From Chromera velia (Eukaryota > Sar > Chromeraceae): a stretch of DNA of 64,000 bases. How positions within the stretch are numbered: position 1 is the stretch's first letter; each line of letters opens with the position of its first letter. The translations under genes were made by a program, and so were the position numbers. Positions 8,310 through 16,237 of the stretch are shown here, piece by piece. The notes under the pieces were generated by a model. The model did not search any database and was not told where the DNA came from. It saw nothing but the letters and a program-made list of their open reading frames with translations. Where the stretch lies: assembly GCA_018398765.1 (NCBI GenBank), contig JAHBMJ010001660.1, positions 111,396-175,395 of the forward strand. Direction: 5' to 3'.

Positions 8310-8963
8310 CTACCGGGGAGGGCGCACTTGGTCATCACGTTTGCCATGTTCCTCGATCGTACAATCCATTGGAGATCTGCCCCAAGGACACGCATCTCCT
8401 GAATGCACCACTCCAAAACGCCCTGTATGGAACTGGTCGTGGAGGGGGCCGGAGTCCGTGTAGATAATCATATGGACCTTCTTGAGGCCCCACATTGCCT
8501 TAACGAGGGCTACAATGCCGAAGAGCTTCTTGAGAAGAAACTCAAAGGCAAGCACCTCCCCAGCGGTGGAAGACCCGACCTTCCTTCCCGCCCTCTTGGT
8601 AGCCCACGCGATCCAGTTCTCCAGGAGAGACCGCAGGTCCCCTCGCAACTCGATCGAGTGCAGGATCCTGATAACATAACCCAACCGTGCAGCGTACGTC
8701 GTAAACTTAAACGCTGCGTCAAAGTACGCATGCACAACGGGCACAAGCTCCACGCTCGTGAAAACCCGCTTGTCAGGGTGCCCCTTCAGCATCTCGATGA
8801 TGCACACGACCATCTTGAAGACACGCCTGGAGGGCTTCGAAATCGACTGCGTTACCATGTGGCCCCACACTGCACGGAACGGATTCATCCTCACCCCCCA
8901 CTCCAGCATAGATCGGCTTCTCATACTGGTTATCGACCTCCTCCTCGGTGGAGGGCTCAGCAC
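8310..8963 (-). pseudogene. RNase H part of the copia-type fossil
   Basis: Residue patterns match the copia RNase H module. VHAYFDAAF stands for the first catalytic Asp strand. NWIAWATKRAGRKVGSST corresponds to the usual 'ISWSSKKQ...VALSST' stretch. AGEVLAFEFLLKKL and IIYTDSG carry the later acidic positions. Fossil, broken. Confidence 0.65.
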
Positions 8964-9008
8964 TCTTGCCGTCCAAACCCTTCCAGGGTTTGCTCGGACG
9001 CTTCTCCT

Positions 9009-9593
9009 TCAAAATCTCCCATAGAGGAGTGGTGTCTGTATTCTTGAGGTACGAGACCTGGGAGAGGTGAATCTCCTCCGTGGAGACTCTGGAGATATCC
9101 ACTCAGAAAATTGCCTCTCTGATCCCTCCCCAATCACACACACGGACCCAAAGCCCAGCTTCTTGTTGAGGGTCTCTTGAAGGACCTTGTGCTCCTTCGG
9201 AAGGGCTCCAGTCAGCAAATCGTCTATCCAATTCATGACGATGGCTTGGGCTCTCCCTCCCTCAAGGGGAGCCTTGACTGCGATGGGCGTGTCCACGTGC
9301 TTGAACCCCAACTCCTTGCATACCCCTTCTAACTTATGGTCGAAAAGCTGGGCCACACAGGGCAGTCCATAGAGGCCCATCTCCATCAAGTACGTGCCTC
9401 CGGGCTCGTACTCGGCCGCCATCCTCCTCAGCTCCTCGTACTTGTCGTCAGGGATGTCTTTGAAGGGGTTCTCCTCAGGGACTCGAGGCAGCACAGAGGG
9501 CAGTGTCGCGCTGACCCGCTCGGCATTGTGATCTTTGGAGGTCAAAAAGGCGGCGGTTACATCTGCCGCCCCTATCTCCATTCCTGTGGACAC
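9009..9593 (-). pseudogene. reverse transcriptase part of the copia-type fossil
   Basis: Copia RT landmarks in order are ADVTAAFL (equivalent of DVxxAFLNG), LYGLPCVAQLFDHKL (equivalent of LYGLKQAxRxWxxKL), a GF pair, and MNWIDDLL (equivalent of the YVDDLL catalytic box). RVT_2-type rather than the gypsy type. Fossil, broken. Confidence 0.75.
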
Positions 9594-10227
9594 AATGAAA
9601 AGGTAGACGGTGTTGATCCCCGCGACGGAAGGCGTTCCGACGTAGGTGTTAACGAGTCGGCTATCCAGGAAGGCTTAGCCCTTTGCGAAAAACCTCGCCT
9701 TAGGCTTCCGGCCCCCATCGTCCGTCTCTTTCTAAATGCATCGCCAGCCCATGCTGACGACCGCCCGAACCTCGTTCCTCTTAACCCTCCTGCCGAGCGT
9801 CCGATTTCCTACAATGTTCACCAGCCACTTTTTCAGGGCAGCAAGCTTGTGAGACCCTGAGTTGATCTCCTCCTTTGTGGTGGAGAGCTGGGTAGAGCCC
9901 AGGGGCCTTCTTGAAACGGCTCATCTCCTCTTCATACACGGCAGCTCCCGTGAACAGGAACCCTGACCGAGGGTTCCTGGAGGAAAGGTAAGACAGGTGA
10001 GGAAGACCGCACCACCTACTCCTAGTGGGGCTCTTCGGTGTCCTAGCCTATTTGGGACTGCCCTCTTCCCTCTCCCACGCTATTGCCCCAGCAAACGACA
10101 GAATGCCTCTCTCCTCCCAGAAATCATCATTCCAGTTCCTCCCCGTCACCTCGGGCACTCTTTTTACTCGCTCCTCCCTCAAAACCTCCATCGCACAGAG
10201 GGTGTTAAACCGCTCCCACTGCGGGCC

Positions 10228-11055
10228 CTACAAAACCTCATCCACCTTGTTTATCTCCTCAACCTCCTCCTTGGGCGGGTTCTGCCTCACGATGGGTTTT
10301 TCTCCGGCCCTGGGAAGTTTTTGACCCCCCAGGACATCCCACTCTTCATCTGAGGAGCTGCTGTCGCTCCCGAAGCCCAAGCCGCTTGCCTCAAACATTG
10401 ACAAGCTGGCATCTGAGGTATACCCATCCCCTTCCGTAGATACCATCAGGGATGGAGGCTCCTCATCCGTCTCCACATTCTCTGCAATAGGGCCCAGTGG
10501 CTTAACTCCTCCAACCTCATCCCCTTCATCAGATGCCCCCTCGGTAGCAGGAGGACCCCCATGATCCTCCGCTTGCTCCTCTCTGCCTGCGTTTGAAGGA
10601 ACAACAGATTGAGACTCAGCAGCCTCGGGGACAACACGTGACTCCCCTTCTACAGGAAGCACAGCAGGGACAACAGAACAGGAAGGCACAGCAGAGGAAG
10701 ACGATGCGGAGGGATCTGGAGAGACCGCATCTGCAGAGCCCTTTGCACCCCCTACCCTTTCTTCCTCCGGTAGTTTCTAAACTCTAACTTCGCGGAGCTG
10801 GACGGGGTTATCAATCATGCGTACAGCCTCTTCGGGGACTCTCCCTCCCCGAATGTCGAACAAGTGCTTGATGGACGACCGCTTCACTTTCCCGTCCCTG
10901 ATTTCCTTAACCTTGAAAGCGAGGGGGTCCCTTACCGAAAGGTTGGGTGCGAGGTCTGCCCATCCGTAGCTCCTACGCGCCCTTGAGTGGAGGGCCACAA
11001 GCTTTCTCCTGTTGTCCCTCTGGACAACTACCCCCTTCACGGGGTAGGCCTCCAT
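10228..11055 (-). pseudogene. acidic linker region upstream of RT in the copia-type fossil
   Basis: Two neighbouring open segments. The first is basic ([20 protein letters not shown]). The second is a Ser/Glu/Asp-rich low-complexity tract with [10 protein letters not shown] and [15 protein letters not shown] variable acidic linker between integrase and RT is common in copia polyproteins, so I place it there by position. No catalytic motif seen. Confidence 0.4.
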
Positions 11056-11096
11056 CGGCTGACGATCGTACGAGGAGAACTCCAGCGCAGCTGGAC

Positions 11097-11985
11097 CTAA
11101 AACTCTCCTCTCTCAGATGGGAGTTCCTTGTTTGGACCGGGACCTATCTGCGCCCCCCGGGTGTGCAGAAGGGTCAATCGGCCTATCCTTCGGTTCCGAC
11201 TCGTCATCTCTACCCTTCTTGATAGAAGACTCTGCCCCTCTTTCGTCGTCTCCGTCATCCCTGGAGAAGATCCTTCTCCCAGACCATCTCCGCGGTCGTC
11301 TGCGAGCCGATAGACAGAGGCGGGCCCTCTCCCCAACGGAGATGCCATAATGTAGAGCTTGGATAGATCCGGGAGGAACGTCCCCCCCACCATCTCCATC
11401 TCCATCATCATCTGTTCTCCCGCCCCAGTCTCCTCCAGAATAACCCCCTGGAGGTGGGTCATGTGGAAAATCGTCTGGGAGAGGGTCCCTGTGACCTCCA
11501 TTTCCATCAGGAGGATCCCCCCCGTCATCTCCATCATCTGGGTCTGACCTGCTTGGTCTGCCCCACAGCAGAGACTCAGAAGTGAAGGTGTCTTCCTCAA
11601 TCTCCTCATCCTCAGCACCCGATAAATGAGCGCGAGGGGACCCTTCGCCTCCCTTTCTCTCTCTGCCTGTCTTTGCCACCGACGCATTCGAGAGCTCCTC
11701 CTAAGCTCGGTCTCCGCGGCTGACCTCGTTCTTGTCGACCCTGTCTCTGGGGTCCTTGGGAGGGACGACCTCTACCGTGGGGTCTTCTCTCTCGAACACG
11801 ATGGGGCACGAGCGGTCATCGTGGTGCTTCGACCGATGGAACATGCACCTAACCTGGTAGCACATCTCATACACGAGGCACCACGCCTTCTCATCTCCGT
11901 TGCTTTCTGTCCCCCGGAACATGTCCCGAAAGTGTTCCATTATCCGATCTCCTCCTTTTATGTACGCCCGGATGCTTGCAGCCAC
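11097..11985 (-). pseudogene. Cys/His-rich and Gly/Asp-rich debris, probably gag-side of the fossil
   Basis: One segment has a cluster [19 protein letters not shown] that resembles a degenerate zinc-binding nucleocapsid motif without matching the CCHC spacing. The next is a Gly/Asp/Pro-rich low-complexity stretch. Assignment to the retroelement rests on strand and order only. Confidence 0.35.
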
Positions 11986-12090
11986 CGGATCCGGGTCGTA
12001 GGAGCTTGGAAGAACATAGTTCTAAAACTCGATCCGCTTGTACCCGTAGTACCTCTCAGGAAAACCAACAGCCATAGACAGCCCGACTGT

Positions 12091-13954
12091 TCAGAACTTC
12101 CCCTCCAAAGGGGTCCAGTAGGCATACTCGGCTCCCGGGGGCTCAATCTGAGACAGACCGTCTGTCTCCCTCAATTCCCTGTCAGCCTCGATCCACTCCT
12201 GCTTAGGCCTGTCCAAGTAGTTGAGCACCGTGTACATGTAGTATTGCCCCCTACGCTTGCGCCCAGCCATATCGGGAGCAATGGAGACTCGGAGACTCAT
12301 CGAAGTGGTCCACCCCTCTAGGATCTTAATCCAACGGGGCTGTGGAGGTGAGTGCAGATAGACGCCCTGGTTCTGTAACATGATCTTCTTGAGGCTGTCC
12401 TCCTCAAGATCGAAACCCATGTCTCCAGAGAACACTCCACGTGCTTCTTGGATTTCATCCTGCGTCTTTGTTGCACTTCCGCTTCTCCACGAGTCCCCCT
12501 TGACGTCCGTCGTCAGTCGGGGGGCCAAATAGTTCTTGAGGGTATCCAGGACCTCTCTCTGAGTGATCTCCCCTAAATCGGGGTAGAGTATGAGCACGAA
12601 ACGACGAGTCCAAGCGTCATACACCCCCCGGCGGTACGTCATGAACACCGGCCGCTCCACCTTCCAATTGTACCCCAGGGGCTCCCCATCGGCCCCCAGG
12701 AGGCCGTTCCCCTTCTTGTCGTAAAAGACGGGGCCTGGATCCTTCACCTTCCTTCCCCATGAAGGGGCGCGAGTATGCTGCCGCACCGTTCCAGGCGTGC
12801 GCAGCACCCCAGGGCCTGACGGGTCCAGGATGGTCTCTTTCATGGAGGAGCCGAGCGGGACAAGGAAATCCGGCTGCAGCAACTCCCCAGAGTCAACGGA
12901 AGCCCTGTTGGACACAGCAGGAGAGGGAGACGTACCGTGGTCGGGCGCCCGCCGCCCCCGCTTTCCTTACCAAGGCCTTAGCCTGAGCAGGGGAGGGTTC
13001 GGAGGGCTTTGCAGGAGCAGGGGGAGGGAGGGAGGGAGGCCGTGCAGAGGGGAGGGCAGAGGAAGACGATGACGAAGCCGATGCCTGCGCCTCCGTGCTC
13101 AAAATTTCCTGATAGCCCTCATGAAGGTGAGTGAAGCGAGGGGCTTCCCGCAAGCCTATAACACATTCACCCTCATCAGCCAGTTGGAAAGAAAATTTCC
13201 TCGCCGGCCACTGTGTCCCTCGCTGTAACCCCTCGTACCGTCCGACCAAAGAGGTGCCCAGAAGGACTAGAGGGAATCCCCTGTGACCGAGGTTGCTTCT
13301 GCCTGCCTGTCTGTGGTAACGGGCGCCTGTTCCCCCCTCCTGCCTTGCAGAAGTCTTCCAGAGTCGAGGATCCTCCTGGTCTCCGCCCGCTGGAGCCAGG
13401 AGGATAGTTCCTTCCTGATCGAAACGAGGCCCTCCCCAGAGGTGGAGGTTGTCCGGGACTGTCTGCAGATGCTCCGGGTGCCACACTGGACTTGCAGGAC
13501 GGTAAAATGTTCCCCTTGAACGTTTTTTTTTCTTGTGTTTGTAGAGAACCACGACCATATCATGCGTGAACGGAGCCAAGAACTGCACAATAACTCCATG
13601 TAGCTCTGTTTCCAGGGAGGGCATGGACACTACCGCGGTGTCCCCCACTCTCCATCCAGGAGGTGCTCTTCGAAAGGTCAGGGTAAAAGGGATGCCCCCC
13701 ACCGTTCTGTGAAACATACAGAAATACTCCCAACATTCCCCCATCACCACGAGGTGGATCACAGCAAGGGAAAAACGGTGGTTCGGATCCGACATGAGGA
13801 GAGCCACTCCCTCCCGATTACTGTGGATGCAGCGCTTGACCAGGGCCTGCAGACCCTTTCCAATGTACGGAGGTCCCTGATGGTACTCGATGGAATGGAG
13901 TCCGGGGGACTCGTCCTCCCGGAGCCACGACTGGAAGGACGGATGTTTTGCCAT
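12091..13954 (-). pseudogene. two unrecognised overlapping open segments at the 5' side of the retroelement fossil
   Basis: Open segments of 274 codons (12091-12915) and 353 codons (12893-13954) overlap slightly. The first contains ordinary globular-looking sequence (WNWK-like and [11 protein letters not shown] strands). The second ends in Ser/Pro/Ala low complexity. Neither shows a motif I can name. They may be gag or a lineage-specific ORF of the retroelement. Confidence 0.4.
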
Positions 13955-13964
13955 AGTTTAACGG

Positions 13965-14346
13965 CCTGATACTTCAAGAGAGTTTCCGCGTAATGCAAAG
14001 ACTGGAAGGATCTCGGCTCCTTCATCATATCGGACATGCTGCCACCATTTTGTATAATCTTGTGGACAGCGTGTATATCATTTCTTTTACCTTGACTCGT
14101 CAAAGATTTCATGGCGTAGCTGTCGTGACGTTCCGGGTCTCTCGCAGGTTCGACATGTCGCGGCTTGAATATTTTACGCACCGCATACACCGACCTAGGA
14201 TTAGGGAACCAGACGGTGACGTGGCGGTGGAGCTTCTTGGTGGTGGAGCACTCTTCAAGGGCTCCTATGAAACAGTTATGAGGTTTAAAAACAGAGTCGT
14301 CCAACTCGAAGTCGGTAATACAATACGCACGATGCTTTTTCACCAT
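13965..14346 (-). pseudogene. Rep (HUH endonuclease) fragment of the CRESS-DNA virus fossil
   Basis: Starts with a Met followed by VKKHRAYCITDFE (motif I region). Motif II is KKLHRHVTVWF, with the His-x-His metal-binding pair. Motif III is SYAMK (the YxxK nicking Tyr and Lys). These are followed by GKRNDIHAV and a GSMSDMMKEPRSF stretch, matching the usual 'G(K/E)RNDL...' segment C-terminal to the endonuclease. The helicase half expected next is not present, and the sequence changes to retroelement debris near 13960. In life this protein would nick the origin and start rolling-circle replication. Confidence 0.87.
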
Positions 14347-14353
14347 TTACTAC

Positions 14354-14400
14354 TGTAGCCGGGCCAGGCGTGGCGACTGAACGGGCGCCGTCAGGGGCGT
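14354..14400 (+). repeat. 47-bp inverted repeat, copy 1 (between Rep and Cap starts)
   Basis: Matches the reverse complement of 15131-15177 at 44 of 47 positions; all three differences are transitions. It is GC-rich with the core GGGCGCCGTCAGGGGCG, and sits entirely in the Rep-Cap intergenic region. Confidence 0.93.
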
Positions 14401-14401
14401 T

Positions 14402-14426
14402 GCATTTTTTATGTGATAAAAAATGC
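14402..14426 (+). promoter_or_regulatory. 11-bp-stem hairpin overlapping the Cap start
   Basis: GCATTTTTTAT, a 3-nt loop, then its exact complement ATAAAAAATGC. The second arm contains the Cap ATG (14423). It lies two bases after inverted repeat copy 1. It could affect transcription or initiation, or be a remnant of a viral control element; function is inferred only. Confidence 0.6.
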
Positions 14427-15130
14427 CTAAAAGAAAGCGAAAAGACCGCAAGGTGGTCGCAAGGTGGGTCCGTCCCCGCTGCATGGTTCGCAGGAAAGCT
14501 CAAGTCCCTTGTGGACCGGGAATCCTGAAGAACTTCAAAAGGATAGTCAAAATGCGTTACGTTACCTTCGAGACGACGACTACCGTGCTCAGAGCGCTGA
14601 ACGCGCAGATATTTCGCGCGAATTCCCTACATGATCCGGACTTCTCCGGAGTAGGAGCTCAGCCGTCTTTCCATGACATATATGCGGTCATCTGGAATAA
14701 ATACATGGTGGTGGGCGCGAAGTGCTCTGTGACGTACTTCCCCACATTTATCTAGGGAGCCTCCGATAGATCTGGACAGCCGCACATTGCGGGAATCTAT
14801 ATCGATGACGATGCGATAGCACTAACGGATTATCGGACCCTGCTCGAATCCCAGAACCAATGGTACAAGATTGTCTCTAACGTATCTCTGGGATACAGAC
14901 CTAAGCGCGTTTCCAGCGGATTCTCCGCAAAACGTTACTTTGGCTTCAAAGACACGCGGGACAACATGGATGAATACGGTGCTGCGTTTGGGAGCAACCC
15001 CACGAACCAAGCTTTTTTTGTCTGTTAGGCACAACCGGTTAACCAGGCAGGGGGCCAAGAGCTGAAGTGGATGTGTCAGATCGATCACGCAGTGGTCTTG
15101 TCGGAGCCGAAAGACATGGTAGCGTCGTAG
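14423..15130 (+). pseudogene. Cap (capsid) remnant of the CRESS-DNA virus fossil
   Basis: The N-terminus is arginine/lysine-rich (MPKRKRKDRK), typical of the DNA-binding arm of circovirus-like capsids. A beta-strand-rich body follows with the diagnostic FRANSLHDPDFSG motif, then AQPSFHDIYAVIWNKY and VVGAKCSVTYF, a pattern shared by circo-like single-jelly-roll capsids. Capsid-like sequence continues to about 15130, directly against inverted repeat copy 2. Broken; two or three interruptions judged by eye. Confidence 0.85.
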
Positions 15131-15177
15131 ACGCCCCTGACGGCGCCCGTTTAGTCGCTACGCCTGGCCCAGCTACA
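15131..15177 (-). repeat. 47-bp inverted repeat, copy 2 (just after Cap)
   Basis: Reverse-complement partner of 14354-14400 (44/47). Together the pair frames Cap with almost no spare sequence on the 3' side. Confidence 0.93.
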
Positions 15178-15232
15178 CTTTGTGGTCGGAGGGTCAAAAG
15201 ATATATTATGAGAACATAATGTAATCACCCCA

Positions 15233-15307
15233 GAACAGAAGTCACTATGCCATGGAGCGATGCTCCACGAACAGAATCGGCACAGTATTACCTAGTGACT
15301 TCTGTTC
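15233..15307 (+). other. rolling-circle origin hairpin with nonanucleotide
   Basis: A perfect 15-bp inverted repeat (GAACAGAAGTCACTA at 15233-15247 and its complement at 15293-15307) encloses a 45-nt loop. The loop holds CAGTATTAC at 15283-15291, fitting the CRESS consensus NANTATTAC cut by Rep. It also holds an inner GGAGC/GCTCC mini-hairpin (15254-15266). The nonanucleotide is on the Cap-sense strand and lies beyond the Cap 3' end. Loops of CRESS origins are usually only about 10-13 nt, so this one is unusually large. Confidence 0.82.
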
Positions 15308-16237
15308 CATTCCGGGAATTCCACTATAGAGTGGCCCCTAACCCTATATACATAATGAGATACACCCAACCAGTTGGGTGAGTGCCTCGGAGGGCCCTTT
15401 AAGGGGTCCGCAAATTTGATTGATGCGCACCAGCGGGGGTTTGGGCATGTTTTGTGCAGGTATATGGGGCGGGGGCCATGGCAACGCGTACGAAGTTACT
15501 GTATAGGACCGCGCGAGCATACACTTGCAACTCCATGCGAGTTACTTGAGGGGTACGCATGTGCGAAGTAATTAAGGTATATGTGTGATCACGGCTCCGT
15601 ACGAGTTGTTTAAGGGGCACATTTTAGAATTTGGGTAAGCGACCCTCCCCCCCAAAATGAAAAAATAGTGCGTGCGATCTCAGGGCCTCTCGGCTGATCT
15701 CAGCAGAGCTGAGCTGCCCCCCGAGGCGACATAGCCCGGAAAGCGAAGCTGAGAGGGCACTTAACAAAAATTGCTTGGATAATGGATGGCACCCCCCTAG
15801 ACCACATGGATGGCTGCGTCCGACGTTTACAGGAAGATCTGACGCACGCCAAGCTCGGCCCCGGAAAGACAATTCAGCTGAGGAGGCGCTTTCCAAATTT
15901 AAAGCAGGGGCAGCAAGAATAAATTTCGCTTTCCGGGCCATTCGCACGGAGTGCGTCGGATGACATAACCCTCAGTGCCGCGCGGCGCCGCGTGACCATG
16001 CATGCAGTGATCTCGGATATAGGATGCATGACTGCATGCATGGGAACACTCCGACGAGTTTGCGTTTGACGGCCTCTTCCCCCGGTTGCACAGGTGCCGC
16101 GGTCTTTGCTTGCCAATCTTTTAGAGGAGCTTCTGTAACTGCACAGCTTTCTGACTGGACGGTCAACACCTTGCAACAAGCATGAACGTGTTTTGCCTGA
16201 CCTTTATACGCTCCGGGATGCTACTTTAGTAACCAAC
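15308..16237. promoter_or_regulatory. intergenic region with TGCATGCA cluster upstream of the Thr-stalk gene
   Basis: No gene recognised. The distal part (15308-15990) holds small palindromes such as CCACTATAGAGTGG. The proximal part has ATGCATGCA at 15998-16006 and TGCATGCATG at 16033-16042, about 200-240 bp before the proposed start at 16238. The same octamer recurs upstream of other genes here, so a promoter role is likely but inferred. Confidence 0.45.

Follow-up and report, generated by a model that had tools for sequence, protein, structure and literature searches.

A decayed CRESS-DNA virus fragment in the Chromera velia genome with a Cap-like gene bracketed by an inverted repeat

The window analyzed here is a stretch of 64,000 nucleotides from Chromera velia, a member of a lineage of photosynthetic relatives of apicomplexans, and between about 13940 and about 15343 it contains a decayed CRESS-DNA virus fragment of approximately 1.4 kb that lies between host repeats (Table 1). 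The fragment holds part of a Rep gene, a Cap-like gene and an origin of replication. It is not a whole viral genome because the helicase half of Rep is missing and a host element, itself broken at 13939, adjoins the fragment at that end. There are no runs of N in the window, and an Rfam search of 13900-15800 gave 0 matches at E up to 1.

Table 1. Features of the viral fragment and its host flanks in the window, and related Rep fragments at other loci
Feature	Position	Strand	Remarks
Integrated CRESS-DNA virus fragment	13940..15343	.	Left border within 13940-13957, right within about 15308-15359
Host transposable-element family, part	12000..13939	-	36 of 41 other matches end exactly at 13939; non-viral
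N-terminal part of Rep, HUH endonuclease domain	13946..14346	-	Open, cut before helicase; 13946-13957 assigned by eye
Left arm, 47-bp inverted repeat	14354..14400	+	Within 76-nt gap between Rep and Cap start codons
Cap-like gene, basic N-terminal arm	14423..15130	+	In-frame TAG at 14753-14755 and 15026-15028; TAG at 15128-15130
Right arm, 47-bp inverted repeat	15131..15177	-	Directly after Cap stop codon
Replication-origin hairpin	15233..15307	+	Perfect 15-bp stem, CAGTATTAC in loop
Host interspersed repeat, about 390 bp	15343..15730	.	Non-viral; 17 loci compared
Second-lineage CRESS Rep fragment, C3527	L056 1174-1740	-	PF02407 over cut-off
Second-lineage CRESS Rep fragment, C2348	L057 1501-1806	+	PF02407 over cut-off
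Second-lineage CRESS Rep fragment, C3426	L046 2741-2920	-	PF02407 over cut-off

The Rep frame begins at ATG 14346 on the minus strand, retains about the first 130 codons of the gene, and runs on into the flank without a stop to give a 195-aa open frame. It contains the motifs CITDFE, HRH, SYAMK and GKRNDI, and when it is aligned with 38 Rep relatives the columns that hold the Y and K of SYAMK do not vary. Two candidates emerged from a search of 5.8 billion proteins and one of them, P0001, is a match (E 3.3e-8, 38% identity). This is a Rep-like protein of 276 aa that carries PF00910 above the cut-off, matches the solved Rep 7lar (E 3.2e-32) and finds 308 relatives, and most of the best 120 of these 308 carry PF02407 and PF00910. 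As a control, every window ORF with a length of at least 60 aa (585 in total) was compared with 120 Rep relatives, which were gathered via P0001 and are not an independent set. Only the Rep frame gives a convincing match, with E 1e-16 in blastp (0.002 for the next best frame) and E 6e-10 against the profile (0.06 for the next best). The fold predicted with Rep relatives in the alignment (39 rows) has a mean pLDDT of 79. Foldseek gives no match to it in the PDB at E 0.001 (best 1.8e-3, TM about 0.45), and the top 14 rows, which come from 8 entries, belong to circo-, nano- and geminivirus Reps, followed at rank 15 by a polyomavirus origin-binding domain; in a library of viral models 225 reach E 0.001 (50 of them listed). 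The alignment, the profile control and the fold point to the HUH Rep with three motifs that is typical of the Cressdnaviricota, with the Pfam cut-off not reached. The SF3-type helicase of the same phylum is cut off from the window Rep and no helicase half lies in the window; it is seen in the relative at locus C3845, and the only other match in the genome is a weak one at C3426 (E 6.4e-4). We consider the Rep identity to be real, as the database match, the ORF control and a predicted circovirus-Rep-like fold with modest scores suggest.

The Cap-like gene starts at ATG 14423 on the plus strand with an arm rich in K/R. The initial annotation had called it circo-type, a label that is supported by neither a family model, nor a PDB sequence search, nor a fold. 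Specifically, a Pfam scan of the pieces 14423-14755 and 14756-15028 at E up to 1 gave no family at all, so that the Circo_capsid (PF02443) match expected of Circoviridae is lacking for the two Cap pieces scanned. The PDB search gave no supporting match, and the fold predicted from the single sequence is meaningless (mean pLDDT 38.5). The same annotation had proposed Pfam as the check on both genes, and neither window fragment passes the cut-off of any model, Rep having Rep_OBD at 13.7 bits against a cut-off of 24.6, while an NCBIfam scan of the fragments gave nothing useful. It had also named the lack of any significant match to CRESS proteins as evidence against itself; this does not hold for Rep, given P0001, and for Cap no family matches. 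The assignment as Cap is indirect and is suggested by the gene's position and basic arm together with signs of selection and similarity to other loci. Homologs lie at the decayed loci C3845 (the first 43 residues) and C884 (31-36%), and a Cap piece at C3466 is 80% alike to C884 over 41 residues. The first 41 codons compared with C3845 give a dN/dS of 0.22, which indicates purifying selection. The homology to C884 crosses the second window TAG in a single frame, and that TAG is therefore premature. All three Cap stops are TAG and a recoded codon was considered, but the N-terminal part of Rep at C3845 has one TAG and two TAA, so that plain decay fits better than recoding.

Beyond the 3' end of Cap, 15233-15247 pairs perfectly with 15293-15307 to form the stem of the putative origin, which folds as single-stranded DNA at -20.7 kcal/mol (z -6.5), with 0 of 200 shuffles as good. 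In circoviruses the origin lies where the 5' ends of Rep and Cap face each other. On the window fragment, which lacks the rest of the circle, it does not, and no NANTATTAC is seen by eye in the 76 nt that separate the two start codons. Nor does NANTATTAC occur in the parts of the other four Cap loci that were scanned, and the window origin is found nowhere else in the genome. A hairpin with a nonanucleotide, as in the Cressdnaviricota, is nevertheless present, its CAGTATTAC being among the nonanucleotides published for CRESS viruses (PMC8307498). All three signatures on which the initial annotation was built, the Rep motifs on the minus strand, a Cap with a basic arm on the plus strand and the origin hairpin, lie where it placed them. 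Its judgment that they could not plausibly coincide by chance is upheld by the protein match of Rep and by the single convincing frame among the 585. Its claim that Rep, Cap and origin were retained together stands for part of Rep, Cap and the origin, but not for the helicase half of Rep, the place of which is taken by the host element.

A search of the genome (177.8 Mb in 4040 contigs) shows at least eight CRESS-derived loci, including the window, with at least two Rep lineages, both numbers being lower bounds. One of these loci is C3845, which has both Rep halves with several stops, the repeat and the start of Cap, and is alike to the window at 433 of 591 bases. Here the helicase, with its Walker A motif and PF00910 (28.2 bits vs a cut-off of 21.5), follows the N-terminal part, the very place where the window has the host element. 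Apart from simple repeats, the viral part is all that a 10-kb stretch around C3845 has in common with the window, and C3845 is therefore a separate insertion. Between the two copies dN/dS is 0.17 in 94 codons of Rep, and over 135 codons it is 0.185 (bootstrap 0 to 0.32), with dS saturated. Such mostly synonymous divergence would be expected if the two had split as working virus genes. Of the other Cap loci, C3466 keeps the end of Cap and one repeat arm, and C884 keeps the end of Cap and both arms, with the start of Cap recognized by eye. Between the arms of C884 there is also a 147-aa open frame (L044 652-1092, minus strand) that could be a novel viral gene; it finds only itself in the genome and has no PDB match, and as a candidate divergent Rep it was not convincing (hhalign probability 16%, E 0.0015; hmmsearch E 1.6). 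C2024 has 91 bp alike at 91% (L026 4895-4985), comprising the viral Cap end and a repeat arm, inside a cysteine-rich tandem-repeat frame (CKECGGSSICEHG). We take this tandem repeat to resemble the EsV-1-7 repeat, and Pfam gave nothing for it at E 0.01. Finally, C3527 and C2348 have Reps with PF02407 and C3426 has a related fragment; over the aligned part C2348 is 75% and C3426 96% alike to C3527. By their sequences these three look like a second lineage, apart from that of the window, and our guess is that they are the Reps published in PMC10193959.

The Cap-like gene is bracketed by the two arms of an inverted repeat, 94% complementary, which the initial annotation had missed. With up to 3 mismatches, the 23-base core of the repeat occurs at 7 sites in the 177.8 Mb, all of them at the five Cap-bearing EVE loci, and the reversed pattern, used as a control, occurs at 0 sites. 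Between the window and C3845 a 39-base core is alike at 36 of 39 positions, compared with 73% for the whole alignment (Fisher p 0.002, for a core picked afterwards). Both arms are present at the window locus (C1658) and at C884, and these were compared in a 47-base frame, shifted by two bases. The left arms of the two loci agree at 38 of 47 positions and the right arms at 36 of 47, while the arms within one locus agree at 43 of 47 and 41 of 47. Six positions differ between the loci yet agree across both arms of each. Eight positions differ within a locus. The five of these that fall between positions 9 and 43 are changes of G to A or C to T in the right arm, the pattern expected of decay after integration. 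One of the five, however, is found in the right arms of both loci, and for this decay by itself does not account. In the living viruses the arms were probably nearly identical, a likeness that may have been kept via recombination between the arms or via pairing. In our view the most likely role of this doubled element is that of a regulatory or protein-binding site, one that would be required at the divergent promoter as well as next to the origin. The repeat is also present at C884, where the single open frame outside Cap does not resemble Rep convincingly, and this argues against a site that is read by a Rep of the window type alone.

An alternative that we regard as rather unlikely is that the inverted repeats are recombination borders, through which a Cap cassette flips or moves between viral backbones. 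The presence of both arms at C1658 and C884 would fit this, as would the six positions at which the arms have changed in step, but the latter could also result from selection for base pairing. The two loci have homologous Caps, and between the repeats of C884, outside Cap, is a frame that is unique in the genome and no better than chance against the Rep profile in hmmsearch; on the other hand, the hhalign comparison of that frame with Rep gives a weak match, and the segment between the repeats of C884 is short, about 0.8 kb, and has perhaps been rearranged. It also speaks for this alternative that the viral match of C2024 stops where the right arm has its outer edge, and that of C3466 near there by eye. 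The orientation of the cassette is, however, identical at both loci that have Rep and Cap (C1658 and C3845). If true, this mechanism would give these viruses a built-in means for the shuffling of Rep and Cap that is seen across them. The corresponding idea of a protist-infecting CRESS group, in which a Cap cassette between near-perfect inverted repeats is flipped or swapped between unrelated replication backbones, we consider improbable. We retain the regulatory or protein-binding site as our working interpretation of the repeat.

The borders of the fragment are set by the host sequences around it. On the left, copies of the host element match up to 13939 and the viral match to C3845 ends at 13958, which places the border within 13940-13957, the 18 bases between these two ends having been assigned by eye. 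The copies of the element that were compared (11 records, 9 distinct loci, with a left limit of 12000 that is the limit of the query) all continue past 13939 in mutually similar sequence, one of the nine only after a small gap, and the element in the window is therefore broken at this position; it does not resume in the window, as judged from 6 tails of about 1.5 kb. The protein of this flanking element has 22 protein matches, all 22 from C. velia CCMP2878, the best being 100% identical over 93% of the query. Over 8313-13939 on the minus strand the host transposable element has many copies and 108 protein matches, including its own; by eye it resembles a copia-type polyprotein, and the pieces tried gave no Pfam match at E 0.01. 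A C. velia protein, A0A0G4H160 (P0121; window 12896-13957, minus strand), opens with about four residues read from the border stretch 13940-13957, and its start is therefore probably a gene-model artefact at the edge of the insert. On the right, the host repeat, which accounts for 40 of the 47 genome matches of 13960-15420, starts at window 15342-15359 in most of the 17 loci compared, and the stretch 15308-15343 has no sign of viral origin.

As read from the assembly alone, the viral sequence is thus joined to host DNA on both sides, to the host element on the left and to the host repeat on the right, and it is decayed, with two in-frame TAG codons in Cap and a Rep that is cut short. Assemblies of repeat-rich genomes can be misjoined and both junctions lie at repeats, yet a chimera, or contaminating DNA of a free virus, is a very improbable source of a fragment that has in-frame stops in Cap, that makes up about 1.4 kb of a 188.9 kb host contig, and that has separate decayed copies in different surroundings on other contigs. 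Even less credible is a domesticated gene, in which selection maintains an expressed Rep fragment, for example as an antiviral decoy. Although this open fragment is free of stops where its C3845 counterpart has three, Cap has two premature stops, and the frame of Rep differs from that of the host element, which is the one that the reported protein follows.

We are highly confident that the region is an endogenous viral element, in which an ancestral CRESS infection left a linear piece that was joined at a transposable element and then decayed, and with host DNA on both sides the initial annotation was right to see in an algal nuclear contig the record of a past infection of this lineage. Our proposed mechanism is as follows. 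A small circular ssDNA virus with rolling-circle replication would have infected an ancestor of C. velia. In the living virus, if it behaved as its family does, Rep would nick the hairpin at TATTAC, and the 76-nt gap would drive Rep and Cap in opposite directions, with a second, inverted copy of the gap element sitting between Cap and the origin. A linear piece of this DNA, comprising the Rep N-terminus, a repeat arm, Cap, the other repeat arm and the origin, would then have joined the nuclear DNA at the transposable element and decayed by point mutation.

CRESS-derived loci of this kind are already known from C. velia, where a plain EVE alone is nothing unusual. For C. velia and Polymyxa betae taken together, Kinsella et al. 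(2023, PMC10193959) describe nine draupnirvirus-like Rep EVEs outside Krikovirus and two Cap-like EVEs, and they report a Rep partner for 17 of 36 krikovirus Cap EVEs. Together with the at least seven further loci in the genome, this speaks against the rarity that the initial annotation implied. The published elements, among which the window locus may itself be, are likewise decayed Rep and Cap fragments in assemblies, with C. velia as a host species in common, but the term "inverted repeat" is absent from the main text of that paper, whereas the window has one. The CRESS viruses of bleached Ulva (PMC10581178) are similarly tied to an alga, but as described there they are free, argued to be non-endogenous and from another host lineage, and their main text does not contain the term either. 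With Circoviridae and unclassified Cressdnaviricota with NANTATTAC origins the window shares the HUH Rep with a helicase (seen at C3845), the divergent arrangement of Rep and Cap, the hairpin with CAGTATTAC and the basic N-terminal arm of Cap, and it differs from them in that the hairpin is placed past the 3' end of Cap, the identity of Rep to its single database match is 38%, and Cap is bracketed by the 47-bp inverted repeat. A narrow literature search showed, among the papers listed, no such repeats around a CRESS capsid gene and no other relevant report on Chromera with CRESS viruses or circoviruses. Scans of IMG/VR by protein, alignment and repeat pattern gave no free relative: in three of the four scans by protein or alignment 10, 41 and 47 stretches matched a pattern and none passed tblastn, while the fourth scan and the repeat pattern matched no stretch. 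That collection seems poor in small CRESS genomes, and this result is weak evidence for the absence of free relatives.

The fragment and its related loci add to the evidence for repeated infection of the Chromera lineage by CRESS viruses, which belonged to at least two lineages of Rep. The bracketing of Cap by an inverted repeat provides a searchable feature by which living relatives may be found and by which the exchange of coat genes among CRESS viruses may be tested.
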